Shown here piece after piece: positions 24,616 through 47,657 of a stretch of 64,000 bases of DNA. Below the pieces are notes generated by a model that saw only the letters and a list, made by a program, of their open reading frames with translations, searched no databases and was not told the DNA's origin. The stretch comes from Pseudochrobactrum asaccharolyticum (GTDB lineage Bacteria > Pseudomonadota > Alphaproteobacteria > Rhizobiales > Rhizobiaceae). Each line of letters starts with the position of its first letter. The stretch's first letter is position 1. The stretch spans positions 310,001-374,000 of the forward strand of contig NZ_QNRH01000001.1 in the NCBI RefSeq assembly GCF_003314995.1, in the 5' to 3' direction. A program made the position numbers and the translations under genes.

Positions 24616-25044
24616 ATGGAACATCCAGAGACTGTAGTTTCTGCCGACGAACTACTGCTCAGTCTTACAGCTGATGTTGTCGCTGCTTATGTCAGCAACA
24701 ACTCCATCCGTGCCGGCGAGTTGCCAGCATTGATTGCTGATGTTCATGCTGCTTTTGCGCGTTCCGGTGTTCGCGAAGAAGTTGTTGCAGTTGTTGAAAA
24801 GCCGAAACCGGCAATCAACCCTAAAAAATCAGTGCACGACGAGTATATTATTTGCCTTGAAGACGGCAAAAAATTCAAGTCGCTCAAGCGTCACCTGATG
24901 ACCCATTATAATCTGACACCGGAACAGTATCGTGAAAAGTGGGATCTGGATCCTAACTATCCGATGGTTGCACCAAGCTATGCTGAAGCCCGTTCTCAGC
25001 TTGCTAAGAAAATGGGTCTGGGTCGTAAGCGTAAAGCTGCCTGA
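24616..25044 (+). CDS. mucR: MucR/Ros-family zinc-finger transcriptional regulator
   Basis: A 142-aa regulator with an N-terminal helical oligomerisation region and a C-terminal prokaryotic zinc finger. The ligands are Cys, Asp and two His ([19 protein letters not shown], about residues 83-101), the CDHH type known from Brucella. A basic tail GRKRKAA follows. MucR proteins behave like H-NS: they oligomerise on AT-rich promoters and silence genes for virulence, envelope and exopolysaccharide functions. GAAGGA sets the start. It sits beside the putative gafYZ operon, whose upstream region is equally AT-rich. Confidence 0.95.
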
Positions 25045-25134: not shown

Positions 25135-25458
25135 TTACATAGTCTGCTGCTGCATACGACTATGTACGCAATTATCTTTTGCGATCATATTTAAGATACG
25201 TTGTTGCACTTGTTTCAGTGCAATATGGCGATTGATATCGTAACTCCAGTGTTTGTTCAGCCCTTTTAATCTTTCTCTTTTGATAAGCCTGCTTAACCTG
25301 GATACAATGCTTGCCTTGGTCTCGGTCGATGCTGCTGTTATTTGCAAGAGATCTATCCCGCAACTCATTTGTAAAGCAAAAGACTGCGCTGCTTGCAGTG
25401 CATCTTCTCTGCGTTTTTCTATAAAGACTTGTCTGTCGTTTTGCAGGGTTTGTGACAT
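25135..25458 (-). CDS. Conserved-looking 107-aa protein divergent from gafY
   Basis: A charged, mainly helical cytoplasmic protein with a block typical of a conserved domain (MSCGIDLLQITAAS, then HWSYDINRHIALKQ). It has no signal peptide or membrane segment. GAGG lies 6 bases before the ATG. I do not recognise the family. It shares a 283-base divergent regulatory region with gafY, in which each side carries one arm of a mirrored TTATCCCCGT motif, so the two may share a regulator. Coding status is probable, not certain. Confidence 0.6.
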   Translation of the reverse strand: MSQTLQNDRQVFIEKRREDALQAAQSFALQMSCGIDLLQITAASTETKASIVSRLSRLIKRERLKGLNKHWSYDINRHIALKQVQQRILNMIAKDNCVHSRMQQQTM

Positions 25459-25741
25459 TGCTCCGCCTCTTGTTTGGTGAGGCGAATGATAGGTGAGGAA
25501 AAATGAACGGGGATAAGCAGATTTAAGTAATATTATGTTTTAAATTTAATGGAATTAATATTTTTTTATAAAGAAATATGTATTGTTAAATTTATTTATT
25601 GCAATTAATAAGTTAGATTTATTTTGAATATTTCATATTAATTGCAAATTATTGATATGTTTTTTATATTTAAAATAAATGGTTTGAATTTATCCCCGTA
25701 TAATCTTTTTACCTTAACCATATGTCATCTACGGAGGGCAT
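25459..25741. promoter_or_regulatory. Divergent control region of gafY: mirrored TTATCCCCGT, AT-rich core, CtrA-like site
   Basis: ACGGGGATAA (25507-25516) and TTATCCCCGT (25690-25699) are perfect 10-bp inverted arms around an extremely AT-rich core. A second inverted pair, TTGCAATTAAT (25599-25609) and ATTAATTGCAA (25637-25647), lies inside. The right arm runs into a consensus -10 TATAAT (25699-25704), and TTAACCAT (25714-25721), a CtrA half-site, follows at the expected start of transcription. GGAGGG precedes the gafY ATG. TTATCC is the core of the DnaA box, and the adjacent gene encodes a DnaA-domain-IV-like protein. Confidence 0.6.
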
Positions 25742-26293
25742 ATGTTGAATAATTTTCCTGATTTTCTATCTGGCCGTACCGATACGCTCATCGTTTTACG
25801 TAGCTTCCCGACAGCTGCACAGAGATCTTTCAACAGAGAAGAGAATAACCGCAGCATAATGGGGGAAGTAAACCGGAAAATGCGCATGACAGATGATGCG
25901 CTTTATCTCGCAGAGCTGCTGTCTCATAATCATAAGTTAAAGCGGCAGGGCAACAATAATGAACGCCAGCAATATGCGTGGACCCTGTGTGGTGCGCTAC
26001 TCTCTTTATTGTCCGTTTTCTTTCAGGTTTCATTAAAAGAATTACGCAGTGCTGAGCGGGGCAACAATCATGTTGCCCGGATCCGGCAATTCGGCATGTA
26101 TATCGCACATACGATGTTCGGACTTTCTATGTCTGAGGTGGCCGGTGCTTTCTGTCGTGAGAGAACGACAGTGAAACATGCCTGCCATCTTATTGAAGAT
26201 ATGCGGGAGAATGAAAAATTCGACCGCAATGTCAGTGATTTTGAATATCTGGTTCGTTCCCTCTATCCGGGTGTAGGGGGGATTGCGGAATGA
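25742..26293 (+). CDS. gafY: DnaA-domain-IV-like regulator, putative GTA activator GafY
   Basis: A 183-aa protein whose residues 96-160 resemble the C-terminal DNA-binding domain of DnaA: RIRQFGMYIAH helix, then ERTTVKHACHLIED, matching the DnaA signature that contacts the DnaA box. There is no AAA+ ATPase, so it is not a replication initiator. Next to a DUF6456 gene, this is the split form of GafA, the direct activator of gene transfer agent expression in Rhodobacter; the two-protein form is GafY/GafZ in Caulobacter. Its stop overlaps the next start (ATGA). The function is assigned by domain and context. Confidence 0.72.
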   Translation: MLNNFPDFLSGRTDTLIVLRSFPTAAQRSFNREENNRSIMGEVNRKMRMTDDALYLAELLSHNHKLKRQGNNNERQQYAWTLCGALLSLLSVFFQVSLKELRSAERGNNHVARIRQFGMYIAHTMFGLSMSEVAGAFCRERTTVKHACHLIEDMRENEKFDRNVSDFEYLVRSLYPGVGGIAE

Positions 26294-27081
26294 CAAAGCA
26301 AGGTCTTGGTTCGAATAGTGTCGATCAACACGTTGTTTTGCGTGTGTTGCGTTTCTTGCTCAAATCCGCAGCTCTGCCGGAGACGAGTACAGATCAACAG
26401 CGCTGGCTGCTCGTGAGCGAGCAGGGCGGCACGATAGCCTGTGATAAGCTGGTTTTGGAGGCATTAAAGTGTTCCGCATTCATCAAAATGCAAAGTGGGA
26501 AGGTTGTTTTATCTGTGGTAGGGCGTGAGTTTCTGCAAGAACTTAAAAGAGCTGCTAATTCTGTGTATAAAGATGTTGCGGTAAATAGCGCCGGGATTGC
26601 CGTCAATCATGCTGAGTCTCCGCTCGCACTGCTCTATCGCAAGAATAAGCAAACAGGTCAGCGTTTTCTCAGCGATGAGGAGTTTCAGGCCGGAGAGCGT
26701 CTGCGTGCAGATTTCACACGGGGCAATATGTTGCCGCGCATAACGGCTAATTGGGAGGCAGGCGTTACAAAACGCTCCCGCGGTGAGCAGGGCGCACAGG
26801 CAGAACTGAGCGATCATGCGCTGGATTGTCGGGACAGGGTTGAGAAAGCGCTGAAAGCTGTCGGACCCGAATTATCCGGTGTTCTGCTGGATATATGCTG
26901 TTTTCTGAAAGGGCTGGAGCTGGTTGAACGTGAGCGGTCATGGCCGGCACGCTCTGCAAAAATGATGCTGAAAACTGGTCTCAGCATTCTCCATCGCCAT
27001 TATACGGCTGGACGCAAGACGGATAAGTCAGAAGCGCCTGTCTATCATTGGGGAACACCTGATTTCCGTCCGTCCCTGTAA
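26290..27081 (+). CDS. gafZ: DUF6456 protein, putative GTA anti-terminator GafZ
   Basis: A 263-aa protein with a winged-helix-like N-terminus (about 10-90) and a DUF6456 domain (about 110-245). The domain is recognised by ESPLALLYRK, AVGPELSGVLLDICCFLKGLE and ERERSWPARSAKMMLKTGL, and ends LHRHY. The C-terminal half of GafA in Rhodobacter is of this type. Caulobacter GafZ works as a transcription anti-terminator with Nus factors so that RNA polymerase reads through the GTA cluster. The 4-base overlap with gafY implies coupled translation. A terminator in the leader of the GTA cluster 10 kb downstream supports this role by inference. Confidence 0.72.
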   Translation: MTKQGLGSNSVDQHVVLRVLRFLLKSAALPETSTDQQRWLLVSEQGGTIACDKLVLEALKCSAFIKMQSGKVVLSVVGREFLQELKRAANSVYKDVAVNSAGIAVNHAESPLALLYRKNKQTGQRFLSDEEFQAGERLRADFTRGNMLPRITANWEAGVTKRSRGEQGAQAELSDHALDCRDRVEKALKAVGPELSGVLLDICCFLKGLELVERERSWPARSAKMMLKTGLSILHRHYTAGRKTDKSEAPVYHWGTPDFRPSL

Positions 27082-36960: not shown

Positions 36961-37107
36961 CGAACCCATTCTACCACATTCTTATGAATGACCAATAAAA
37001 CAGAAGTGCCAAGGAAGGGTTTAGAAATATGCTTAATCAGGGAAGGTGTGATATTTCAAAATGTTAAATATCTTACTGATTGAGCAGGTAAGAATGTGTG
37101 TCGGAGA

Positions 37108-37159
37108 GGATAAAAATAGGAATTTTATCCTTGACTGCGTGACGGTGTTGCAGTAGCTT
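37108..37159 (+). promoter_or_regulatory. Putative GTA cluster promoter with inverted TTATCC operator
   Basis: GGATAAAA (37108-37115) and TTTTATCC (37123-37130) are perfect inverted arms. They abut TTGACT (37131-37136), a good -35. A weak -10 (TAGCTT, 37154-37159) lies 17 bases further. An activator bound at the inverted repeat would sit directly against RNA polymerase. TTATCC is the core of the DnaA box, which suits GafY. The promoter call is an inference. Confidence 0.5.
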
Positions 37160-37211
37160 TCAGATACAGTCAGAGAAGTGTGGCTGAGACAATTCAATAG
37201 AATTTGATGGG

Positions 37212-37238
37212 GCGTAGCATTTGGTGCTGCGCTTTTTT
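37212..37238 (+). terminator. Intrinsic terminator in the GTA leader
   Basis: GCGTAGCA (37212-37219) pairs with TGCTGCGC (37225-37232), one G-U pair, loop TTTGG, followed by six T. No plus-strand gene lies upstream (the PBP gene is divergent), so it can only act on transcripts started in this gap, ahead of the first GTA gene. Confidence 0.75.
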
Positions 37239-37286
37239 GTTTTGAAATTCTGAAACCGGTTATGCGTTTGGAAAAGAACGGAGCCG

Positions 37287-37781
37287 GTGCAATCGATGCC
37301 AAAAAATATCGGGCCGGAAAACAAAGAGACGACAAAGCTGCAACATAATGCGGCTCATGAGCGTTTGCAGGTGCAGGCTGTTTATCGTTTGCAACGGCGT
37401 TACCGGATTGCCGGACAGGACATGGCTTTTCTGTTAGGGCTGCAACCGGACATCTACCTCAGGCGGTTGAAAAAGGCAGGGCTGAACAGCAATGCAAATA
37501 GCCCGCCGCAGCTCGATATCGAAGACCTGCTGATTAAAATTAATACGGAATTGCAAAACTTCTCCAAAGCCGATGGCCTGCCGGAAAAGAGTGCGGTTGA
37601 AGCTTTGGCGTCATTGGCAAAAGCGGTGAAGAGTATCAGCGAATTGTCCAGGGAAACACGGGCAGAGCAGGCCGGAAGCCAGCCGGAACAAGGCCGTGAG
37701 ACAGGCGGTGTGAAGCCGGAGGATGTGCGTGAAGCCCTCAGCATCATCAGCGCCAGAATTACCGAACTCCGATCTGCTTGA
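37287..37781 (+). CDS. GTA small terminase subunit (g1-type)
   Basis: A 164-aa basic/helical protein at the position of g1 in RcGTA-type clusters, which encodes the small terminase subunit that selects DNA for packaging. It has an N-terminal helix-turn-helix-like stretch (YRIAGQDMAFLLGLQPDIYL) and a helical C-terminal half. GTG at 37287 has GGAG at short spacing; ATG at 37296 is an alternative. Its 3' end overlaps the large terminase gene. Identification rests mainly on position. Confidence 0.7.
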   Translation: MQSMPKNIGPENKETTKLQHNAAHERLQVQAVYRLQRRYRIAGQDMAFLLGLQPDIYLRRLKKAGLNSNANSPPQLDIEDLLIKINTELQNFSKADGLPEKSAVEALASLAKAVKSISELSRETRAEQAGSQPEQGRETGGVKPEDVREALSIISARITELRSA

Positions 37782-39060
37782 ACTGCTGACCAACGCGGGA
37801 GTTGATGCGCAGACCATTGTTGCAACGAGTCAGGAGTGGCTGTTTCAGGGGCGGTTGGCGCAGCTTCCGGTTTTTCCACGTAATGACTGGCGCAGCTGGG
37901 TGATTATGGGCGGGCGAGGCTCCGGCAAAACCCGTGCCGGTGCCGAGTGGATCAGCGGCATGGCGCAGGGACTTGCGCCTTTCAGCGATAAAGCTTGCGG
38001 CAACATTGCTTTGGTGGGGGAGACGCTTGCCGATGTGCGTGAGGTGATGGTTGAAGGGCCTTCTGGTATTCTCTCTGTATCACGGTTGCAAAGGCCGAGG
38101 CTGGAAAGCACGCGGCGCAGACTGGTCTGGGAGAGCGGGGCGGTAGCTTCCTTCTATTCATCAGAAGATCCTGACAGTTTGCGCGGGCCGCAATTTTCTG
38201 CTGCGTGGTGCGATGAACTGGCGAAATGGAAAAATCCGCAACAGACATGGGACATGCTGCAATTCGGCTTACGGCTAGGAGATAACCCGCGACAGGTGGT
38301 GACGACTACACCGAAAATGCAGGCTCTGCTGCGCGATCTGTTGAGTGATCCGACTACGATCATGACACATATGCGTACTGATGAAAATGCAGCACATCTG
38401 GCACCGGCCTTTCTGCTGGCGATGCAGCAGCGTTATGCTGGCACATCTCTGGGGCGGCAGGAACTCGATGGTGTGCTGATCGCGGATCGTGAGGATGCGC
38501 TGTGGTCGCGGGAGCAGTTGGGGGCACTTTATGATCCACAAGTGCCGGAATTGCAGCGCATTATTATTGCAGTTGATCCGCCTGCCACGTCCACCAAAAA
38601 TTCGGATGCTTGCGGGATTATTGTGGCGGGTCTGGATGTGCATGATCAGGCATGGGTGCTTGAAGATGCGACCGTGCAAGGTGTGAAGCCCCATCAATGG
38701 GCAGCTCAGGTTGTGCAGTTCTATCATCGTTATCAGGCTGATCTGGTGGTGGCGGAGGTCAATCAGGGCGGCGATATGGTGATGGCTGTGATCCATGCAC
38801 AGGATACGTCTGTTGCGGTGAAAGCAGTGCGCGCGCAACGCGGCAAATATCTGCGCGCCGAGCCGGTTGCTGCACTCTACGAGCAGGGACGTATTCGCCA
38901 TGCACAGCGTTTTCCGGAGCTGGAAGATGAGATGTGTGACTTTGCTGTGAACGGGCTGTCGTCAGGACGCTCGCCCGACAGAATGGATGCGCTGGTCTGG
39001 GCGCTACATACGCTTTTGCTTCAGGACACGCATAAACCACGCATTCGGCAGCTTCGATAA
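37723..39060 (+). CDS. GTA large terminase subunit (g2)
   Basis: A 445-aa packaging motor that translocates DNA into GTA heads. The ATPase part has Walker A GGRGSGKT (about residues 63-70) and an acidic Walker B near FSAAWCDELAKW. The C-terminal RNase H-like nuclease begins at IIIAVDPPATSTKNSDACGI, with further Asp residues around PDRMDALVWAL. It overlaps g1 by 59 bases. The start codon is uncertain: ATG 37723 touches GGAGG, and GTG 37729 has better spacing. Confidence 0.92.
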   Translation: MCVKPSASSAPELPNSDLLELLTNAGVDAQTIVATSQEWLFQGRLAQLPVFPRNDWRSWVIMGGRGSGKTRAGAEWISGMAQGLAPFSDKACGNIALVGETLADVREVMVEGPSGILSVSRLQRPRLESTRRRLVWESGAVASFYSSEDPDSLRGPQFSAAWCDELAKWKNPQQTWDMLQFGLRLGDNPRQVVTTTPKMQALLRDLLSDPTTIMTHMRTDENAAHLAPAFLLAMQQRYAGTSLGRQELDGVLIADREDALWSREQLGALYDPQVPELQRIIIAVDPPATSTKNSDACGIIVAGLDVHDQAWVLEDATVQGVKPHQWAAQVVQFYHRYQADLVVAEVNQGGDMVMAVIHAQDTSVAVKAVRAQRGKYLRAEPVAALYEQGRIRHAQRFPELEDEMCDFAVNGLSSGRSPDRMDALVWALHTLLLQDTHKPRIRQLR

Positions 39061-39087
39061 ATTACATTACAATCTCGTGAGGTGAAC

Positions 39088-40326
39088 ATGGCTTGGAAAT
39101 GGCCGTGGCGGCATCGTGCTGCCCAAATGCAGGCGCAAAAAGCAACCGCGCCGTCGCAGGCGCAAAAAGTAACTGTGCCGCCTTCCGCAAAAATGCAGCA
39201 GGGTTTTGTCGCCCTGCATATGGATGCACAGGCTCGCTGGACAACCCGCAATTATATGGCGCTGTCGCAACAGGGTTTCATGCGTAATCCGATTGTGCAT
39301 CGCTGCGTGAAAATGATTAGCGATGCCGCAGCCAATGTGCCGTTACTGCTCTATCAGGGTGAGACGGAGCTTGGAGATCATCCGCTTTTGAAGCTGCTGC
39401 GCGCACCACACGAAGGTGCTTGCGGCTCCGGATTTTTCGAACAGCTTTACGGGCATTTACTGCTATCCGGCAATGCTTATATCGAACGGCTTGATTATGA
39501 CGGGCAGGCCAAAGAGTTGCATCTTTTGCGCCCTGAACGGGTGACGATTGAAAGCGACAGTAACGGCTGGCCGCAAGCTCTGCTCTATCGCAATAATACG
39601 GCCAGCCGCCGAATTAGCCTCAATGCCGGTTTCGAGACTGGCCTGTCGGCACGGGCTTTACACCTGCGGCTGTTTCATCCGCTGGACGATCATTATGGTT
39701 TTCCGCCTTTGGAGGCCGCATTGATGGCGCTGGATATTCACAATGCTACCGCTGCATGGAACAAGGCGCTGCTTGATAATTCTGCCCGTCCTTCCGGTGC
39801 GCTGGTCTATGCGCCGAAAGATGGTGGCAATTTGAGCGAAGAGCAGTTTGACCGGCTGAAGACGGAGCTGGAAGAGGGGTATACCGGAGCCGGTGGAGCA
39901 GGCAGGCCGCTGCTGCTGGAGGGCGGGTTGGACTGGAAGGCGATGGGACTTTCGCCCAAGGATATGGATTTCATCGAGGCCAAACATGTGGCGAGCCGCG
40001 AGATTGCATTGGCTTTTGGCGTGCCGTCCATGCTGCTTGGCATTCCCGGTGATAATACCTATGCCAATTATGCCGAGGCCAATCGTGCTTTTTACCGTCT
40101 GACCATTCTGCCGCTTTTGAACCGTACCGCACAGGCGCTGAGCAACTGGCTCTGTCCGCAATATGGTTCCGATCTGCGATTGGAGCATGATCATGACCGG
40201 ATTGACGGATTGGCGGAAGAGCGCGAGGCGCTGTGGCGGCGGATTGGTGCAGCTGATTTCCTCAGCGATGCGGAGAAACGGCAGGCAGTTGGCTATTCTC
40301 TTGAACCGGAGGGGAGGGAGGCATGA
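39088..40326 (+). CDS. GTA portal protein (g3, HK97 family)
   Basis: A 412-aa protein that forms the dodecameric portal ring through which DNA enters and leaves the head. HK97-type marks are the CVKMISDAAANVPLLLY region near residue 75, GNAYIERLDYDG and FGVPSMLLGIPGDNTYANY near 320. ATG at 39088 follows GAGG. An Ala/Gln/Lys-rich repeat (QAQKATAPSQAQKVTVP) near residue 15 is unusual for portals. Its stop overlaps the next start (ATGA). Confidence 0.92.
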   Translation: MAWKWPWRHRAAQMQAQKATAPSQAQKVTVPPSAKMQQGFVALHMDAQARWTTRNYMALSQQGFMRNPIVHRCVKMISDAAANVPLLLYQGETELGDHPLLKLLRAPHEGACGSGFFEQLYGHLLLSGNAYIERLDYDGQAKELHLLRPERVTIESDSNGWPQALLYRNNTASRRISLNAGFETGLSARALHLRLFHPLDDHYGFPPLEAALMALDIHNATAAWNKALLDNSARPSGALVYAPKDGGNLSEEQFDRLKTELEEGYTGAGGAGRPLLLEGGLDWKAMGLSPKDMDFIEAKHVASREIALAFGVPSMLLGIPGDNTYANYAEANRAFYRLTILPLLNRTAQALSNWLCPQYGSDLRLEHDHDRIDGLAEEREALWRRIGAADFLSDAEKRQAVGYSLEPEGREA

Positions 40327-40694
40327 ACCTGTTCAACCAGACTGGAGAATTAACGCAGGAACAATGGATTTGGCTTGCCAAAATCACCGGTGCCGTCAGC
40401 GGTTCTGCCGTCTCACTGGCTTATATGCTGCCAAAGGGCAAGCGCGAGGCGGCGATCCGTTTTGCTGTAGGCCTAATTTGCGGCATGATTTTCGGCGGAG
40501 CGGCGGGCGTTAAAATCGCAGAACAACTGACATTAAGCAACAGTCTCGGACAAGCGGAACTGATGCTGATGGGTTCAGCCGCTGCGAGTTTTGCTGCATG
40601 GACAGCGCTTGGTTTCTTCAAGCGGTTTACCGACAGGCTTAAAAATCAGGACAGCATGATTTTCCGTAAAAGGAGTGCTGCCGATGACAATTAA
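40323..40694 (+). CDS. GTA small membrane protein (g3.5, DUF6107-like)
   Basis: A 123-aa protein with two or three hydrophobic segments (ITGAVSGSAVSLAYML, FAVGLICGMIFGGAAGV, LMGSAAASFAAWTALGFF). It sits where RcGTA-type clusters encode the small DUF6107 protein. The role is unknown. ATGA overlap with the portal gene; its end overlaps the protease start by 11 bases. Confidence 0.8.
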   Translation: MNLFNQTGELTQEQWIWLAKITGAVSGSAVSLAYMLPKGKREAAIRFAVGLICGMIFGGAAGVKIAEQLTLSNSLGQAELMLMGSAAASFAAWTALGFFKRFTDRLKNQDSMIFRKRSAADDN

Positions 40695-41181
40695 TACCGG
40701 TCAGGGCTTGTGGTTCAGTGGCTATGCCAGCCTGTTTTCCCTCACGGATTTGAGCGGTGATATTATTGAGCGCGGGGCTTTCGCGGCCAGTCTCAAGCGG
40801 GGCGGGACAGTGCGGATGCTCTGGCAGCATCAGGCAGATAATCCCATCGGCATCTGGACGAAGATAATGGAAGATCAGCGCGGCCTTTATGTGGAAGGGC
40901 AACTGGCCGAAGGCGTGGCGCGGGCTGATGAGGCATGGCGCTTGCTCTCGGAAGGGGCGCTGGATGGGTTGTCGATCGGATTTTGGGCTGTGCGCAGCAA
41001 GAAAGCCACGGCCACCGGCCAACGGCATATTCTGGAAGCGGAGCTTTGGGAAATCTCGCTGGTGACATTTCCGATGCTGCCACAGGCGCGCGTCACCGCT
41101 GTTCAGCATAAACAGCATGATGAAAACAGTACTGCGCGGATCATCCGGCAGGCTACATTTCAGCTCCATAGCAACAAATAA
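40684..41181 (+). CDS. GTA prohead protease (g4, HK97 family U35)
   Basis: A 165-aa serine protease that cleaves the capsid delta domain during head maturation. Catalytic-triad candidates are His in LWQHQADNPIG (about 44), Ser in LDGLSIGFW (about 96) and Glu in ILEAELWEISLV (about 116). AAGGAG lies 7 bases before the ATG. The substrate is the neighbouring capsid gene product. Confidence 0.92.
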   Translation: MTINTGQGLWFSGYASLFSLTDLSGDIIERGAFAASLKRGGTVRMLWQHQADNPIGIWTKIMEDQRGLYVEGQLAEGVARADEAWRLLSEGALDGLSIGFWAVRSKKATATGQRHILEAELWEISLVTFPMLPQARVTAVQHKQHDENSTARIIRQATFQLHSNK

Positions 41182-41238
41182 TCTCATCCGGTCGGTTTGC
41201 ATCGGTTCATTATACTTCAACTGTAAAAAGGACAGGCA

Positions 41239-42516
41239 ATGACGATCAAGCAGATGCACAAAGCAGCTAAGATGCCGGCTCTGGAAATCAAAGCGCTGAA
41301 TAGTCAGCAGGAAGTCGGGCAGGCTTTCGGTGAATTTATGCAAGCCTTTGAGGGCTTTAAACAAGCCAATGATGAGCGCCTCACACAGATTGAAAAACAT
41401 GTTGGTGCGGATGTTCTGACTGTTGAAAAAGTGGAGCGTCTTAACCGTGCCATGGATGAGCAGAAAGCGGCGCTGGATCAATATGTGTTGAAACAGGCAC
41501 GCCCTGCGCTGGGAGGTGAGGAGCGTTCCATCCACAGCCCTGTAGTTCGGGAACATAAACAGGCTTTTGACCGCTATGCCCGCCGTGGTGATGAGCAGGC
41601 GCTGCGCGGACTTGAACAGAAAGCGCATTCCTATGGTTCGGGGCCGGATGGCGGTTATCTCGTGCCGTCTGAACTGGAAACGGCAATCGGCACGCGTTTG
41701 GCGGCACTTTCGCCGGTGCGTGGTTTGGCAACCGTGCGTCAGGTTTCCGGTGCGGTTTTGAAGAAACCATTTTCTATCAGCGGACCGGGTACGGGCTGGG
41801 TTGGTGAAGAGGGCGCACGCCCGCAGACCACCAATGCCAAACTGGCAGAATTGCAATTCCCGACCATGGAGATTTATGCCATGCCTGCGGCAACCGCCAG
41901 CTTGCTGGATGATGCGGCGGTGGATGTGGAACAGTGGATTGCTGCCGAGGTTGAAACAGCTTTTGCCGAACAGGAAAGCGCTGCTTTTATCAATGGTGAT
42001 GGTGTGAACAAGCCGCATGGCTTTTTAGCCTATGATACGGTTGATGAAGCGTCATGGGCATGGGGCAAACTTGGTTGTCTGAAGACCGGTGTTGCCGGTG
42101 CCTTGCCTTCTTCCAGCCCGTCTGATCTGCTGATTGATCTGGTCTATGCGCTCAAATCCGGCTACCGCCAGAATGCTCATTGGATGATGAACCGTAAAAC
42201 ACAATCGGCACTGCGTAAGCTCAAAGACAGCAATGGCAATTATCTCTGGCAGCCGCCGGCATCGCTTGGCCAGAAAGCGTCCTTCATGGGCTTCGGTCTG
42301 GTGGAAGCCGAGGATATGCCGGATATTACAACCGACAGCACACCGATTGCCTTTGGTGATTTTGGCCGTGGTTATTTGATTGTTGATCGCATTGGTATCC
42401 GCGTGCTGCGCGATCCGTATTCTGCCAAACCATATGTATTGTTCTACACCACCAAACGTGTGGGCGGTGGTGTGCAGGATTTTGATGCGATCAAACTGCT
42501 CAAATTTGCAGCTTAA
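41239..42516 (+). CDS. GTA major capsid protein (g5, HK97 fold)
   Basis: A 425-aa major head protein. The N-terminal ~110 residues are helical/coiled-coil (the delta domain normally removed by the protease). The HK97-fold core follows, with GGYLVPSELETAI at about 138, FPTMEIYAMPAATASLLDDA at about 208 and WMMNRKTQSALRKLKD at about 315. It assembles the shell that carries random host DNA. AAAAAGGAC precedes the start. A 107-base gap follows, the largest inside the cluster apart from spacing around g15. Confidence 0.95.
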   Translation: MTIKQMHKAAKMPALEIKALNSQQEVGQAFGEFMQAFEGFKQANDERLTQIEKHVGADVLTVEKVERLNRAMDEQKAALDQYVLKQARPALGGEERSIHSPVVREHKQAFDRYARRGDEQALRGLEQKAHSYGSGPDGGYLVPSELETAIGTRLAALSPVRGLATVRQVSGAVLKKPFSISGPGTGWVGEEGARPQTTNAKLAELQFPTMEIYAMPAATASLLDDAAVDVEQWIAAEVETAFAEQESAAFINGDGVNKPHGFLAYDTVDEASWAWGKLGCLKTGVAGALPSSSPSDLLIDLVYALKSGYRQNAHWMMNRKTQSALRKLKDSNGNYLWQPPASLGQKASFMGFGLVEAEDMPDITTDSTPIAFGDFGRGYLIVDRIGIRVLRDPYSAKPYVLFYTTKRVGGGVQDFDAIKLLKFAA

Positions 42517-42563
42517 GTTTACTGAGAGAAGGCGGTTTTGCCTGTTCTTGCAGGGCAACATGA

Positions 42564-42600
42564 ATCATTCTGTCAGAGAGTGATTTTATCATATTGTTTT
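42564..42600 (+). terminator. Possible internal terminator between capsid and g6
   Basis: ATCATTCT (42564-42571) pairs with AGAGTGAT (42577-42584) with one G-U pair, followed by a T-rich stretch (TTTATCATATTGTTTT). A further stem TTGCC/GGCAA lies just upstream (about 42539-42557). It is weak, but it sits after the most highly needed gene product. Confidence 0.4.
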
Positions 42601-42623
42601 TATTATAAATTACGGGAGATAGC

Positions 42624-43193
42624 ATGGTTCTCCGTCTTATAACGCCGCCGGTCAGCGAGCCGGTGACGACAGCATTGCTGCGCGATTTTTTACGTTTGCC
42701 ACTAGGGCAGGAAGAAGATTTGCTGGAACGGCTGATCTGTACTGCGCGTGAGGTGATTGAGCAACATTGTAATCTGGTGATGTTGCCGCAGTGCTGGCAT
42801 TTACAGCTCGCCAACTGGCCGCAATCGGGCAGAATTGCACTCTATAAAGCGCCGGTCATTTCCATCGATAAAGTACAGGGTTTTGCTGCCGATGGCAGTG
42901 AGGTTTTGTTTAGTAAGGATGATTGGCGTCTGGATACGGAGAGCCGTCCGCAGCGGGTTTATCTCCGTAGACCTCCGTATATCACCATTGCCCGTGGGTT
43001 GGAAATTGAGCTGACTGCCGGTCTGGCGAGTGAGCCGTCAGGTCTGCCTGAAACATTGCGCCATGCCTGTGTGATACTGGCGGCGCATCTCTATGATAAC
43101 CGTAACTCTGCCGAGGCAGGCGGGCTGATGAGCAGTCTGCCGGATATGGTTGCACAATTGGTGGCACCGTGGTTGCGGCGGGGGCGGCTATGA
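42624..43193 (+). CDS. GTA head-tail connector protein (g6)
   Basis: A 189-aa protein of the phage conserved head-tail connector type (gp6-like): the helical DFLRLPLGQEEDLLERLICTAREVIEQ region near residue 20 and RHACVILAAHLYDNR near 150. It binds under the portal. GGGAG precedes the ATG. It ends in an ATGA overlap with g7. Confidence 0.85.
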   Translation: MVLRLITPPVSEPVTTALLRDFLRLPLGQEEDLLERLICTAREVIEQHCNLVMLPQCWHLQLANWPQSGRIALYKAPVISIDKVQGFAADGSEVLFSKDDWRLDTESRPQRVYLRRPPYITIARGLEIELTAGLASEPSGLPETLRHACVILAAHLYDNRNSAEAGGLMSSLPDMVAQLVAPWLRRGRL

Positions 43194-43525
43194 ACCTGCA
43201 ATTCATTGATGCGGGACAGTTCAAAATATTTCTGAGCCTGCAAGAGAACCGTCCGCTGTTTGATGACAGTGGCAGCTATCAGGAGCAGTGGACAGAAGTT
43301 GCCACGCTCTGGGGCAGAATTGAACCTAAGAAAACCGGCAGCCAATCCTTCGCATTGCAGGCCATTCCCAATCTGACACATCGCATCATAACCCGTTATC
43401 GCAGCGATATAGCTGTTTCTATGCGGCTGACGCAGGGGACAAGGCATTTCACGGTGCTCGGTTTGCATGACCCCGATGAAAGCCAACGCTATCTCATCTG
43501 CTCAGTTAGAGAGGAAATCCGATGA
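43190..43525 (+). CDS. GTA head closure / head-tail adaptor (g7)
   Basis: A 111-aa beta-rich protein of the phage head-tail adaptor family: VATLWGRIEPKKTGSQSFALQ and ILxx-type C-terminus RYLICSVREEIR. It closes the portal channel. Start and stop both overlap neighbouring genes by ATGA. An upstream start (43169) lies within g6 and was not chosen. Confidence 0.82.
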   Translation: MNLQFIDAGQFKIFLSLQENRPLFDDSGSYQEQWTEVATLWGRIEPKKTGSQSFALQAIPNLTHRIITRYRSDIAVSMRLTQGTRHFTVLGLHDPDESQRYLICSVREEIR

Positions 43526-43689
43526 ATTTTTCTATGCGTTTTATATTTGAAGCCTTGTTACGCACGCTGCGTCTTGTCGGTTTGCAGGCCTGTGAGCAAG
43601 CTTTGTCCAACAAACGTGACGGGCTGTTTTTGAAAAGTCCCGACACTAAAACACCGCCAGCCAATCCTGAACAGGATAATAAGGTATGA
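43522..43689 (+). CDS. 55-aa protein embedded in the GTA operon
   Basis: A short open frame with ATGA overlaps at both ends: its ATG overlaps the g7 stop, and its stop overlaps the g8 ATG (43686). The first 30 residues form an amphipathic basic helix (FIFEALLRTLRLVGLQACEQ), followed by a Pro/Asn/Asp-rich tail. GAGGAAATCC precedes the ATG. The coupled arrangement argues that it is translated. I know of no named counterpart in RcGTA, so its function is unknown. Confidence 0.7.
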   Translation: MNFSMRFIFEALLRTLRLVGLQACEQALSNKRDGLFLKSPDTKTPPANPEQDNKV

Positions 43690-44117
43690 CGGGTGCGGCG
43701 CTCGCTCTACAAAAGGCAATATTGGCGTGGCTGCAAGCCGCGCCTTTGCTGATGGAAAAACTGCAGGGACAGGGCATCTATGATCATGTGCCACCCCATG
43801 CAGTGTTTCCTTATATCAGCCTTGGCCAAAGTCAGGTCTATGCCTGGGATACCGATACCGGCACCGGCGAGGAACATAGTCTGGTGCTGCATGTCTGGGC
43901 GCGCTCCAATGGCCGCAGACAGGTGCTGGAACTGATGATGCTGGTGGAGGAGTTGCTGGAGGCTTTGGGGAGCAATGCTTTGAGGCCGGATATCGGTGGA
44001 TTTCATCTGGTCAATCTGACTTTGCAATCTTCACAAACTCGTAATGACGAATTGCGCGATGGTTATAGCGGGCAATTGCGCTACCGCGCGGTAACCGAGA
44101 AAATTGAAGGGATGTAA
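43686..44117 (+). CDS. GTA tail terminator protein (g8, DUF3168)
   Basis: A 143-aa protein with the DUF3168 pattern: ALQKAILAWLQAAPLL at the start, PYISLGQSQVYAWDTDTGTG in the middle and HSLVLHVWARSNGRRQVLELM after. By analogy with phage tail terminators it forms the ring at the head-proximal end of the tail. It overlaps the 55-aa gene by 4 bases. Confidence 0.87.
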   Translation: MTGAALALQKAILAWLQAAPLLMEKLQGQGIYDHVPPHAVFPYISLGQSQVYAWDTDTGTGEEHSLVLHVWARSNGRRQVLELMMLVEELLEALGSNALRPDIGGFHLVNLTLQSSQTRNDELRDGYSGQLRYRAVTEKIEGM

Positions 44118-44120
44118 CGA

Positions 44121-44534
44121 ATGGCAGCCCAGAGAGGGAAAGACCTGTTGCTGAAAATTGCAACAGGCGACGACACATTTCAGACCTGTGCAGGTTTGCG
44201 CAGCAAGCGCATTGCGTTCAATGCGGAGACTGTTGATGTGACTGATGCCGATGCTTCAGGGCGCTGGCGGCAATTGCTGGCTGGCAGCGGTGTACAGCGT
44301 GCATCGGTCAGTGGTGCGGGTATTTTCAAAGATGCAGCATCTGATGCACTGATCCGCACAGCATTTTTCAATGGTGATATTCTGAACTGGCAGATTGTTG
44401 TGCCTGACTTTGGCACGGTTAGCAGCTTGTTTCAGATCACTGCGCTGGAATATGGCGGTGCGCATGATGGTGAAGTGACCTTTGAAATTGCCTTGGAATC
44501 CGCTGGTTTTGTCAGTTTCGGAGCGCAGCTATGA
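44121..44534 (+). CDS. GTA major tail protein (g9)
   Basis: A 137-aa tail-tube subunit of the TP901-1-like major tail protein family: GKDLLLKIATGDDTFQTCAG at the start, VDVTDADASGRWRQLLAG and YGGAHDGEVTFEIALESAG near the C-terminus. It stacks as hexameric rings. Its stop overlaps the next start. Confidence 0.88.
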   Translation: MAAQRGKDLLLKIATGDDTFQTCAGLRSKRIAFNAETVDVTDADASGRWRQLLAGSGVQRASVSGAGIFKDAASDALIRTAFFNGDILNWQIVVPDFGTVSSLFQITALEYGGAHDGEVTFEIALESAGFVSFGAQL

Positions 44535-44881
44535 TGGTCAATGCCAGACGGGGTGAAATTGCAGCAGTCTTGAATGATAAGGACTGGGTTTTGTGCCTGA
44601 CACTGGGCGCATTGGCTGGACTCGAAGCTGCATATGAAGCAGAAGACTTGTCGGCTCTGATTGCCCGTTTTTCAACGGGCAGTTTGAAAGCGGAAGATAT
44701 GATCCGCATTGTCACTGCGGGATTGCGTGGTGGTGGTCATGATGTGGCGGAAGATGATGTGGCCGATATGCGCATTGATGGTGGTGCTGTCGGTTTTGCC
44801 CGTCTTGTCGCGCAATTGCTGGAAGTGACTTTTGGTGTGAGCACCGAAAAGTCGGAAAACGTAGCACAATCAAAAAATTAG
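44531..44881 (+). CDS. GTA tail assembly protein (g10)
   Basis: A 116-aa protein of the gene-transfer-agent gp10 family: MVNARRGEIAAVLNDKDWVL then LTLGALAGLEAAYEAEDLSA. Equivalent phage genes encode tail assembly chaperones that coat the tape measure protein. ATG at 44531 or the adjacent in-frame ATG 44534 may be used; both overlap the g9 stop. Confidence 0.85.
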   Translation: MMVNARRGEIAAVLNDKDWVLCLTLGALAGLEAAYEAEDLSALIARFSTGSLKAEDMIRIVTAGLRGGGHDVAEDDVADMRIDGGAVGFARLVAQLLEVTFGVSTEKSENVAQSKN

Positions 44882-44898
44882 AAGCCGCAATTGAATCA

Positions 44899-45087
44899 AT
44901 GTCTTTCCCCTGGGATGCGCTGATGCATTTCGGGTTGGGACAATTGCGGCTGTCATCACAGCATTTCTGGCAACTTAGTCTGCCGGAGATCAGAGCGCTA
45001 ACCGGCGCTATGCGTGGCGGCAGGCAGGCGCCGTCTCGCGTCATTCTCAACAGCCTGATGCAGGCTTTTCCTGATGGTGAAATATGA
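44899..45087 (+). CDS. GTA tail assembly chaperone (g10.1, rcc01693-like)
   Basis: A 62-aa protein matching the small conserved protein after g10: FPWDALMHFGLGQLRLSSQ, HFWQLSLPEIRAL and LMQAFPD at the end. The frame stays open upstream across the g10 end. As in phages where the two chaperones can be made by frameshifting, a g10/g10.1 fusion product is conceivable. No strong ribosome binding site was seen. The stop overlaps the tape measure start (ATGA). Confidence 0.8.
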   Translation: MSFPWDALMHFGLGQLRLSSQHFWQLSLPEIRALTGAMRGGRQAPSRVILNSLMQAFPDGEI

Positions 45088-45656
45088 ATGATACAGGCAC
45101 GCAGCAGCAGTCGGTCACGGTTTCTGTCGAGGCGGATACCAGCGGTTTTGACCGTGCGCTGGATAATTTACAAAAGCGCTCCGGCGCGTTCGGGCAGAGC
45201 CTGACCTCGGCTTTTAAAAGCGCGGTTACATCCGGTAAAGGACTGGATGATGTGCTGCGAGGGCTGGCGTCGAATATGGCCTCCATGGCGCTTGATGCAG
45301 GGATGAAGCCGCTTCAGGGCTTATTCTCTTCGATGTTCTCCGGTCTGATGGGCGGGCTTGGTGGCCTGGGCGGAGTGAAACCTTTTGCCAAAGGCGGGGT
45401 GGTTTCCAGCCCGACTTATTTCGGGCTCGGGAGTGGTTTTGGCGTGGCCGGTGAGGCGGGTGCCGAGGCGATTTTACCCTTGGCGCGAGGCAGTGACGGC
45501 AGTCTTGGCGTGGCGATGGGCAGTGGCGGAAGAGGACGAAGTATGCAGATCAATTTTAATATGTCCTCACCGGATGCTGCCTCGTTCAGTCGTTCCGAAG
45601 CGCAGATCAGTGCCATGCTGGCGCGCGCTGTGCACCACGGCACCAGATGTATGTGA
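45084..45656 (+). CDS. GTA tail tape measure protein (g11)
   Basis: A 190-aa short tape measure with an N-terminal helical part (FDRALDNLQKRSGAFGQSLT) and a hydrophobic segment (MASMALDAGMKPLQGLFSSMF). A Gly-rich part containing FAKGGVVSSPTYFGLGSG and GVAGEAGAEAILPLARG, a signature of tail proteins of this class, follows. The short length fits the short GTA tail. Confidence 0.88.
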   Translation: MNDTGTQQQSVTVSVEADTSGFDRALDNLQKRSGAFGQSLTSAFKSAVTSGKGLDDVLRGLASNMASMALDAGMKPLQGLFSSMFSGLMGGLGGLGGVKPFAKGGVVSSPTYFGLGSGFGVAGEAGAEAILPLARGSDGSLGVAMGSGGRGRSMQINFNMSSPDAASFSRSEAQISAMLARAVHHGTRCM

Positions 45657-45667
45657 AGGGACGGGAC

Positions 45668-46300
45668 ATGCAGGATTTATCTTCATTCCATGATGTGTCT
45701 TTTCCACTCGGCGTTTCTTTCGGTGCAACCGGCGGGCCGGAATGGCGCAATGAGATTGTGGGGCTGACATCCGGCCATGAAAAACGTAATGCGCGCTGGT
45801 CGATGTCGCGCCGCTTTTATGATGCCGGAACAGGATTACGCTCGCTCAATGATCTGCGCGATGTGCTGCGCTTTTTCGAAGCTCGGCGCGGGTCGCTTTA
45901 TGCTTTCCGGTTTCGTGATCCGTTTGATCATCTCTCATCGGAACAGGATGCGCCGCCACAGGCAACAGATCAGTTTTTGGGTCGTGGTGACGGCACAATA
46001 CGGCAGTTTCAGCTGGCAAAACATTATGGCGATTATCAACGCATTATTACCAAGCCGGTGCCGGAGACCGTGCAACTCGCCGTGGACGGGGTGACGCTTG
46101 CGGCTGATGCATTCAGCGTGAATTGGCAGAACGGCATTGTTGAGTTTCACGAAGACCATGTGCCGCCGCCGCAGGCAAAGGTGACGGCGGGTTTCCTGTT
46201 CGATGTGCCAGTGCGTTTTGATACGGATCGTCTGAGCGCCAGTATTGCCAGTTTCAAAGCCGGTGAAATTCCGTCTATTCCGATTGTTGAGGTGAAGTGA
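45668..46300 (+). CDS. GTA distal tail protein (g12, DUF2460)
   Basis: A 210-aa protein of the DUF2460 family: FPLGVSFGATGGPEWRNEIV near residue 13 and FFEARRGSLYAFRFRDPFDH near 72. It forms the distal tail hub ring. ATG at 45668 follows GAAGGGACGGG; an upstream ATG at 45647 lies inside the g11 end and was rejected. Confidence 0.9.
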   Translation: MQDLSSFHDVSFPLGVSFGATGGPEWRNEIVGLTSGHEKRNARWSMSRRFYDAGTGLRSLNDLRDVLRFFEARRGSLYAFRFRDPFDHLSSEQDAPPQATDQFLGRGDGTIRQFQLAKHYGDYQRIITKPVPETVQLAVDGVTLAADAFSVNWQNGIVEFHEDHVPPPQAKVTAGFLFDVPVRFDTDRLSASIASFKAGEIPSIPIVEVK

Positions 46301-47187
46301 TGCTGACACTGGCTCCGGAATTTGAATCACATTTGCAAGGTGATGTGACAACGCATTGTTTCGCATGGATTTTAAGGCGCAAAGACGGAGCGGTTTTCGG
46401 CTTCTGCGATCACGATAAATCCTTGCCAGTTAAGGGCATAAATTGCTTTCCCCAAAGCGGAGTGAATGGTTCTGAAGCCGGAAGTCAGATGGGGCTTTCC
46501 GTAGACAGTTCCGAGATCGAAGGCGCACTGACCAGTGATATGTTGAGTGATGCGGATATTGAGCGCGGACTTTACGATGGTGCAACAGTGGAGACTTATC
46601 TGGTCAACTGGGCGCAGCCGCAGCAATTCGTGCTTTTACGCAGCAGCGTGATTGGCAAAATTACCCGCAGTGGTATGAAATTTATTGCCGAGCTGAAAAG
46701 CAGTGCGGCTTTGCTTGACCGCGTATTCGGGCGACGTGCCAAGCGGGGCTGTGATGCAGAATTTGCAGACAGGCGCTGTGGTATCAATCCGGCCGATCCG
46801 CGCTATGCCGGTGCGGGGATCGTGGAAGTTGTGAACGGACAGGATGTGATTGTCTCAGGCTTGAGTGCTTTCGCAACGCACTGGTTTGAGCGGGGGAGGA
46901 TCACTTGGGCAAGTGGTCAAAATAAAGGCAGTGCGAATAGTATTGTTTCGCATCTGCGTCAGGGAGAAGCTGCCAGTCTGATCCTGCAGGATTTGCCGGT
47001 CTATGACATTCAGGTCGGGGATCATTTTCGTATATTGGCAGGTTGTGACAAGAGTTTTCAGCAATGCCGTGACCGCTTTGCCAATCATGAGAATTTTCGT
47101 GGTTTTCCGCATATTCCCGGTAATGATGCTGCCTATTCCTTTGCTGGTGGTGAGGGCAATTTCGACGGCGGGGTGCTGGTGCCATGA
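46300..47187 (+). CDS. GTA hub protein (g13, DUF2163 / phage_BR0599)
   Basis: A 295-aa protein with DUF2163 in the first part (CFAWILRRKDGAVFGFCDHD) and the phage_BR0599 domain at the C-terminus (GCDKSFQQCRDRFANHENFRGFPHIPGND, quoted in part: CDKSFQQCRDRFANHENF). The latter is named for a Brucella suis locus. Cys residues in this domain may bind an iron-sulfur cluster in related hub proteins. It starts in a TGATG overlap with g12. Confidence 0.9.
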   Translation: MLTLAPEFESHLQGDVTTHCFAWILRRKDGAVFGFCDHDKSLPVKGINCFPQSGVNGSEAGSQMGLSVDSSEIEGALTSDMLSDADIERGLYDGATVETYLVNWAQPQQFVLLRSSVIGKITRSGMKFIAELKSSAALLDRVFGRRAKRGCDAEFADRRCGINPADPRYAGAGIVEVVNGQDVIVSGLSAFATHWFERGRITWASGQNKGSANSIVSHLRQGEAASLILQDLPVYDIQVGDHFRILAGCDKSFQQCRDRFANHENFRGFPHIPGNDAAYSFAGGEGNFDGGVLVP

Positions 47188-47624
47188 CAATAGTGCCCGT
47201 TAATGAAAGGGTTTTAGCAATTGCGCAGACATGGCTTGGTACACCTTACCGGCACGGCGCCAGCCGTTTGCAGGTTGGCTGTGATTGCCTCGGATTGATA
47301 CGTGGTATCTGGCGGGAGCTTTATGGTACGGAGCCTGAGGATGCGGGTACCTATTCCCGCGATTGGGCTGAGCTCACACAGGATGAGCCGCTGATCAGCG
47401 CCGCACGGCGGCATATGCATTTAAAACCGCTCTCCGATATGCAAGCCGGTGATCTGATGATCTTTCGTTGGCGGGACGGTGTAGCCGCCAAGCATTTAGG
47501 TATCATGGCGGAGAGTAATCGTTTCATTCATGCCTATGAGGGGCATAGCGTGACACTTTCTGCAGTGGTTCCACAATGGCGACAGCGGATAGCCGCAGTC
47601 TTTGCATTTCCAGAGAGTTGTTAG
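47184..47624 (+). CDS. GTA NlpC/P60 cell-wall peptidase (g14)
   Basis: A 146-aa peptidase thought to open peptidoglycan at the recipient or help release. The catalytic Cys is in VGCDCLGLIRGIW (about 34) and the His in AAKHLGIMAESNRFIHAYEG (about 102). Normal length for this GTA gene. ATGA overlap with g13. Confidence 0.9.
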   Translation: MTIVPVNERVLAIAQTWLGTPYRHGASRLQVGCDCLGLIRGIWRELYGTEPEDAGTYSRDWAELTQDEPLISAARRHMHLKPLSDMQAGDLMIFRWRDGVAAKHLGIMAESNRFIHAYEGHSVTLSAVVPQWRQRIAAVFAFPESC

Positions 47625-47657
47625 AATCCTTCGGTTTGAAGACAGGTCATCTTTTTC

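Follow-up and report, generated by a model that had tools for sequence, protein, structure and literature searches.

A gafY-gafZ pair as the probable split GafA switch of a GTA cluster in Pseudochrobactrum asaccharolyticum, with a conserved promoter and a leader terminator

Gene transfer agents (GTAs) are domesticated viruses that carry host DNA from cell to cell. Two short adjacent genes in Pseudochrobactrum asaccharolyticum lie about 10 kb from a GTA cluster, which raises the question of whether they are a split GafA that switches this cluster. We analyzed the pair within a 64,000-nucleotide stretch of contig NZ_QNRH01000001.1 (positions 310,001 to 374,000, assembly GCF_003314995.1), here called the window; positions are those of the window (Table 1). 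Split gafA in Rhizobiales was described by Fogg 2019 (PMC6363796), and Gozzi 2022 (PMC9632790) reported 759 GafZ homologues, 494 of them with an adjacent GafY and the two separate more often than fused. In Caulobacter, Tran & Le 2024 (PMC11150451) described activation by GafY and IHF and anti-termination by GafZ. In Hyphomicrobiales, Brucellaceae among them, Sherlock & Fogg 2022 (PMC9638019) described a DnaA-like gene that precedes a DUF6456 gene, flanked by mucR on the upstream and sufE on the downstream side. The preliminary description of this DNA had expected automatic annotation to miss the link to GafA; in the literature the link is not overlooked, as the parts of these papers cited here already contain the split pair (the first three) and the gene order (the last). 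The pair itself is thus already known, and our additions are a promoter element, a leader terminator, a divergent gene (div107) and DnaA-box-like sites, for none of which we found a description in the open-licence PMC literature (text, without figures or supplements). We consider it highly likely that gafYZ is a split GafA that switches on the GTA encoded at 37.3-51.5 kb, with GafZ anti-terminating at the leader.

Table 1. Features of the gafYZ locus and the GTA cluster, and fusion genes in relatives.
Feature	Position	Strand	Description
MucR/Ros regulator	24616..25044	+	PF05443, 1.5e-49; upstream neighbour of gafYZ
div107	25135..25458	-	107 aa, all-helical (predicted), divergent from gafY
DnaA-box-like element GGGGATAA	25509..25516	-	ahead of div107; 7/7 genus members aligned
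DnaA-box-like element TTATCCCC	25690..25697	+	adjoins TATAAT-like -10 of gafY; 6/7 genus members
gafY-like	25742..26293	+	DnaA-domain-IV-like DNA-binding protein without AAA+; start probably TTG 25745
gafZ-like	26290..27081	+	DUF6456 protein
Genus-level conserved block upstream of GTA promoter	36965..37036	+	6 genus members aligned; candidate GafY/IHF region
GTA promoter element	37112..37187	+	alignment A2 (27 rows), model R1
Candidate GafZ-binding palindrome CTGCGTGACGGTG	37135..37147	+	between -35 and -10; imperfect, 4/6 pairs here
Intrinsic terminator in leader	37209..37245	+	before first GTA gene; 12-pair stem, T-run
RcGTA-type cluster	37287..51467	+	TerS, TerL, portal, g3.5, protease, capsid, g6-g10.1, tape, g12, g13, g14, megatron
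Fusion gene	G014 L171:3959-6436	-	TerL N-terminal ATPase + megatron C-terminal half, in frame
Fusion gene	G010 L179:639-3161		further cases L212-L216

Inspection of the sequence confirmed two plus-strand ORFs with an ATGA overlap at 26290-26293, and profile searches recovered the domains that had been named for them. The first ORF carries a DnaA-domain-IV-like region (Bac_DnaA_C, PF08299, residues 91-149, E 6.1e-12) and matched zero AAA+ families at E values up to 1; residues 90-174 also align with the DnaA domain IV structure 1j1v (E 2e-8). The second carries DUF6456 (PF20057, E 2.3e-47) and is the sole DUF6456 match in the whole 4.65-Mb genome. Among 14 control genomes, PF20057 was present in one, Caulobacter vibrioides. 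The GafZ alignment (A3, 30 rows) has 32 invariant columns, and a search of solved structures with GafZ gave zero matches.

gafY is encoded directly upstream of gafZ, the position that marks a GafY, and the two are separate ORFs in different frames rather than one polypeptide with both domains, as a fused GafA would be. GafY residues 109-165 match positions 3-59 of phrog_31864 (316 aa; E 2e-4) and GafZ residues 182-234 match its positions 245-297 (E 9e-4). As these matches fall near the start and near the end of phrog_31864, the two proteins correspond to opposite ends of one protein family. A fused gafA gene was sought at ten loci outside the family (nine from other orders, one from the same order) and found at none: GafY and GafZ matches were in separate ORFs at eight of them, and the remaining two (G214, G082) had a GafZ match only. 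The reading of the pair as a split GafA (GafY plus GafZ) is therefore supported, since both proteins match halves of the GafA/GafYZ family. The start of gafY should probably be corrected from ATG 25742 to TTG 25745, judging from the alignment: the ATG reads ATT or ATC in two of seven genus members, and the TTG, which is the next codon, is kept in all seven.

The closest named GafZ relatives are from Pseudochrobactrum kiredjianiae (72%) and from a contig titled Bacillus subtilis SK6B4 (92%; JAHREI010000009.1). The latter contig is Pseudochrobactrum-like and has the same gene order, and its title seems wrong. We rejected a phage origin of the pair because the sole strong phage match, MW462191, shows a bacterial gene order (regulator, hypothetical, DNA-binding protein, hypothetical, sulfur acceptor protein, kinase). 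This record (MW462191.1), titled 'Bacteriophage sp.', has the mucR-gafYZ-sufE neighbourhood and is probably a mislabelled bacterial chromosome contig. The second phage match to GafZ, from Rhodobacter phage RcPeripeteia, is weak (E 8e-3). Matches also came from two plasmid records (2.8 and 4.6 Mb).

The GTA cluster is real: head-tail genes run in order from terminase to megatron, 10 kb downstream of gafYZ. Families were matched for the large terminase, portal, g3.5, protease, capsid, g6, g8, g9, tape measure, g12, g13, g14 and megatron, with the tape-measure protein scoring 131.6 bits, under its family cut-off of 220. TerS, g7, g10 and g10.1 are named from position only, and the TerS ORF is without a significant family. 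In one relative (L172, G036:C31:16800-24000), the gap between TerL and portal, about 2.1-3.0 kb past the promoter, holds ORFs that by eye resemble a DUF1778/GNAT toxin-antitoxin pair, suggesting an insertion.

We compared gene order across 109 related loci, 29 of which span only about 3.4 kb. The recurrent order is MucR, div107, GafY, GafZ, SufE, DUF5330, kinase, PG-binding, DUF2336, DUF1214 and PBP1; single genes of it are absent in many of the loci, and MucR is at the matching place in many, not all. Among 61 related genomes, gafZ (PF20057) was found in 50 and the GTA marker g12 (TIGR02217) in 47. The two co-occurred in 44, with gafZ only in six, g12 only in three and neither in eight (Fisher p 1.2e-4). 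They were on one contig in 29 of the 44 genomes with both. In 21 of the 44, the two genes had the same orientation and gafZ preceded g12 by 18-34 kb; the remaining eight one-contig cases departed, in distance or orientation, from a same-strand gafZ placed 15-35 kb ahead of g12.

The six gafZ-positive genomes in which g12 is absent would fit a pair that is related to GafYZ and has taken on a different role in the host, such as control of replication via DnaA-box-like sites, with its proximity to the GTA no more than an inherited gene order. Such a function would also agree with the DnaA-box-like elements in the gap between gafY and div107 and with the first name of Caulobacter GafY, hdaB, given for replication effects according to the text of PMC9632790. 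However, five of these six genomes keep the GTA promoter together with GTA genes or remnants downstream, and the sixth (G045) is an incomplete assembly (84% complete, about 500 contigs). The promoter that tracks gafZ, moreover, has one strong copy in the genome, and it is at the GTA. We regard a change of function as quite improbable, and a switch of the GTA as the better reading of the pair.

Alignment of the region upstream of TerL from six genus members revealed one near-invariant block, and a model of this block matched eight of nine other-genus leaders at E 1e-7 or better; the ninth, from G019, was missed by the model and found later by pattern. The block contains ATAGGAA, a -35 element TTGACT (37131-37136), a 17-bp spacer, a -10 element TAGCTT (37154-37159) and a conserved initial transcribed region, where the -35, the -10 and the start (predicted near 37167) were read off the alignment. 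The consensus of 27 sequences reads ATAGGAA, CTTGAC, two free bases, CGT, one free base, ACGGTG and a TAGgTT-type -10. From this alignment (A2) we built a sequence-only promoter model, R1, and applied it with a cut-off of E 1e-3 or better.

R1 was found in 46 of the 61 genomes, namely in 45/50 gafZ-positive versus 1/11 gafZ-negative genomes (p 3e-7). With the 27 building genomes removed, the counts were 18/23 versus 1/11 (p 2e-4), one of those 18 (G002) belonging to the window's own genus. When only g12-positive genomes were considered (n = 47), R1 was present in 40/44 with gafZ versus 1/3 without (p 0.04), so that the presence of the GTA could account for most of the co-occurrence of promoter and gafZ. 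R1 gave zero matches in four genomes that have both gafZ and g12 (G024, G040, G052 and G058), and G018 has the promoter though gafZ is absent. Promoter and g12 were both present in 41 genomes and on one contig in 34. The promoter was upstream of g12 on the same strand in all 34, by 8-19 kb in 32 of them. In the genome studied here, the sole strong R1 match is the GTA promoter (second match, E 0.02). This conserved promoter provides a genome-wide marker for GafZ-type control that reaches other families of the order.

Extra R1 copies (E 1e-3 or better) were seen in G034, G051 and G055 (two each) and in G044 (one). One of those in G051 (L182, G051:C13:360800-363000) is directly before the capsid gene, as if the cluster were split into separately driven modules. 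The extra copies in G034 (L173, L174) and G055 (L184, L185) had zero GTA genes downstream within the 3-6 kb scanned, except that L184 has a 15-residue g14 match on the opposite strand. The genus-level block further upstream (36965-37036) had no significant match in the nine other-genus leaders, and an IHF site was sought by eye in the genus alignment with no conserved match.

Between the -35 and the -10, the spacer holds a 13-mer of the form CxxCGTnACGxTG, at the position where the Caulobacter GafZ element was mapped in the text of PMC11150451. We counted its pairing in 42 promoters, which are related by descent, include three extra copies and take the window as the only member of its genus; G057 was left out (register unsure), and G027, G041 and G042 were placed with low scores. 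A perfect palindrome, CACCGTnACGGTG or CAGCGTnACGCTG, occurs in nine of the 42. Five or six of the six pairs form in 21/42 promoters versus 42/9155 background 13-mers, and fewer than five form in the other 21. Covariation of the palindrome halves across the 42 promoters was rejected as support, as 1010 of 5000 shuffles reached the observed value (Fisher p 0.73).

Downstream of the promoter, a 12-pair stem followed by a T-run (37209-37235) lies about 43-69 nt past the predicted start, which fits anti-termination by GafZ. It is kept in 6/6 genus members examined. Across genera, perfect-stem terminators were found in 11 of 38 leaders (G018 and G044 dropped, and G057, of unsure register, among the 11), and 27 were without one. 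Shuffled leaders gave a mean of 1.8 and a maximum of six terminators in 100 shuffles, and upstream control stretches gave 1/38.

The lack of a simple terminator in those 27 leaders would suit a GafZ that activates the promoter in the manner of the C-terminal half of the fused Rhodobacter GafA, with no anti-termination and with the leader terminator incidental. Also in line with this are the binding of the R. capsulatus GafA C-terminal domain near the -10/-35 and the contact of GafA with RNAP omega, as given in the text of PMC9638019. Against it stand the plus-strand terminator directly past the promoter and before the first gene in every genus member examined, the enrichment of terminators in leaders across genera, and a -35 that is near consensus, unlike the degenerate -35 that PMC11150451 describes in its text for Caulobacter. 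Pure activation seems rather unlikely to us, and we favour anti-termination at the leader. The promoter, the palindrome and the terminator all fit into about 120 bp, which makes the region a compact template for GafZ anti-termination in vitro.

On the basis of the observed protein families, gene order, conserved promoter, tracking of gafZ by that promoter and leader terminator, the switch would work as follows. GafY, via its DnaA-type DNA-binding domain, would activate transcription; a GafY would be expected to bind the promoters of the GTA and of gafYZ with IHF and to contact RpoD, and the locus has candidate sites. GafZ would join RNA polymerase at the palindromic element between the -35 and the -10 of the GTA promoter, and would let the polymerase pass the terminator in the leader ahead of the first gene, an anti-termination expected to involve NusA, NusG and NusE. 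Since GafZ would be needed for read-through, the cluster would stay off without it even when the promoter fires. Binding, anti-termination and induction are predictions based on Caulobacter.

In some relatives the GTA cluster is reduced to a single TerL::megatron fusion gene. Downstream of the GTA promoter, G010 and G014 each have one long ORF in which TerL, up to its WCDE motif, is joined to the C-terminal half of the megatron. A protein search of 297 family genomes found one-frame fusions in at least seven genomes from six genera, and three of the fusion genera (g313, g260 and g11) include a congener whose megatron frame is full-length. Six of seven fusions join after WCDE/WLDE, with at least two different junctions; in the G508 fusion, WCD is joined about a dozen codons further into the megatron. 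The promoter is upstream in six of seven, low-scoring in G010, and for the G409 fusion no promoter was found in the 1.7 kb scanned. Between two congeners, dN and dS are 0.068 and 0.498 for the megatron part and 0.101 and 0.221 for the TerL part. Between the G010 and G014 fusions, dN is 0.60 and dS 0.92, suggesting weak constraint there. The fusion could have recurred without selection, through a short stretch of similarity at the two join points.

Upstream of gafY, the divergent gene div107 encodes a protein with the motif RERLKGxxxHWSYDLNRHIALKQ. Searches of Pfam, NCBIfam and PHROG returned nothing above noise, and a sequence search of solved structures found zero relatives. Ten residues around HWSYDLNRHI are invariant in the alignment (A1, 25 rows), and AlphaFold2 predicts an all-helical fold (mean pLDDT 92.8, pTM 0.76). 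div107 occurs as a single copy in 31 of the 61 related genomes, every one of them gafZ-positive, and was not matched in 19 of the 50 gafZ-positive genomes; the rows of A1 were drawn from gafZ-linked loci, and distant unlinked relatives could be missed. In 30 of the 31 it is on the gafZ contig and on the opposite strand, within 2.1 kb in 29 and within 6 kb in all 30. In a sample of 240 genomes from the class, with at most 20 candidates scored per genome, div107 was found in two (the window's genome and one of the same order) and gafZ in 41. Its presence in five of the six genomes with gafZ but no g12 indicates that div107 follows gafYZ rather than the GTA.

Within the genus, one DnaA-box-like element lies ahead of each of the divergent genes div107 and gafY. 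G006 reads TTATCTTC in place of TTATCCCC, and the 15-bp context of TTATCCCC is unique in the genome (exact match). Across 43 div107-gafY gaps (14.7 kb; loci related by descent, L097 dropped as rearranged), TTATCC[A/C]C occurs in 39 copies, compared with 0.9 in shuffles. The rest of the same loci has 14 copies in 814 kb, and the MucR-div107 gap (6.9 kb) has zero. At least one box is present in 31 of the 43 loci, none in 12, and both orientations in eight.

Judging from sequence motifs, two proteins could read the boxes: GafY, in which much of the DnaA recognition motif is preserved, or DnaA. Binding by DnaA and not GafY would couple gafYZ to replication, and we give it a chance only somewhat short of even: 13 of the 39 copies read TTATCCAC, which we take to be close to the DnaA box consensus, and the recognition motif of GafY, RERTTV, differs from the RDHTTV of DnaA. 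In GafY, the DnaA-motif residues RQ and TTVxHA are nevertheless kept, and Caulobacter GafY binds its own promoter according to the text of PMC11150451. On the other side, TTATCC in the GTA promoter is at the same place in 6/6 genus members and G009 and in 0/9 other-genus leaders. We rejected TTATCC as a general GafY site of the GTA promoter for this reason; four of the nine have one elsewhere in the kilobase upstream of TerL. CtrA control of gafY was also rejected, as the TTAACCAT stretch directly upstream of gafY in the window is unconserved in the genus.

To look for RogA, a LexA-like S24 repressor that controls gafYZ, we also searched the genome with the S24 profile (PF00717) and obtained one match, an ORF read as LexA by inspection; RogA may be missing here or have diverged beyond the reach of this profile. 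Several XRE proteins also repress gafYZ in Caulobacter, as the text of PMC10688885 reports. div107 and the DnaA-box-like sites may control gafYZ and suggest the entry point of an upstream signal in a lineage where RogA was not found. We tentatively propose, with the balance against it, that the Hyphomicrobiales GTA switch is a three-gene unit of gafY, gafZ and div107, with DnaA-box-like operators bound by GafY or DnaA on both sides and GafZ as a Q-like, palindrome-loaded anti-terminator. If true, this would tie GTA production to replication status and keep the GTA off at two levels, the operators and the terminator.

Compared with known systems, the proposed working resembles that of Lambda Q / AlpA type anti-terminators, which load at a site within the promoter, with the terminator lying further down, as described in the text of PMC11150451; Tran & Le note in the same text that GafZ models show no similarity to these proteins. 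Rhodobacter capsulatus GafA has the same two domains in the same order. Unlike the pair, it is a single polypeptide whose central region contacts omega (PMC11150451, text), and its gene usually has lipA and a GMP synthase gene as flanking neighbours (PMC6363796, text). The split gafA of Hyphomicrobiales in PMC9638019 has exactly the arrangement seen here, mucR upstream and sufE downstream, and the text of its gene-order section is silent on GTA linkage, promoter element, leader terminator, div107 and DnaA-box-like sites. Caulobacter crescentus differs in several respects from the locus studied here, where gafYZ is about 10 kb from the GTA, a conserved divergent gene (div107) is present and the sole S24-domain gene found is LexA, with RogA not identified by the S24 search. 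As far as the text of PMC11150451 goes, the palindrome sequence and the -35, near consensus here, also differ, and the terminator, which here is in the leader before the first gene, was mapped in Caulobacter past the first gene, as three GC-rich repeats after gtaT. Both nevertheless have adjacent genes for a DnaA-domain-IV protein and then a GafA C-terminal-type protein, one RcGTA-type cluster and, on the Caulobacter side as described in the text of that paper, an element (a candidate one here) between the -35 and -10 of the GTA promoter and a terminator near the start of the cluster.
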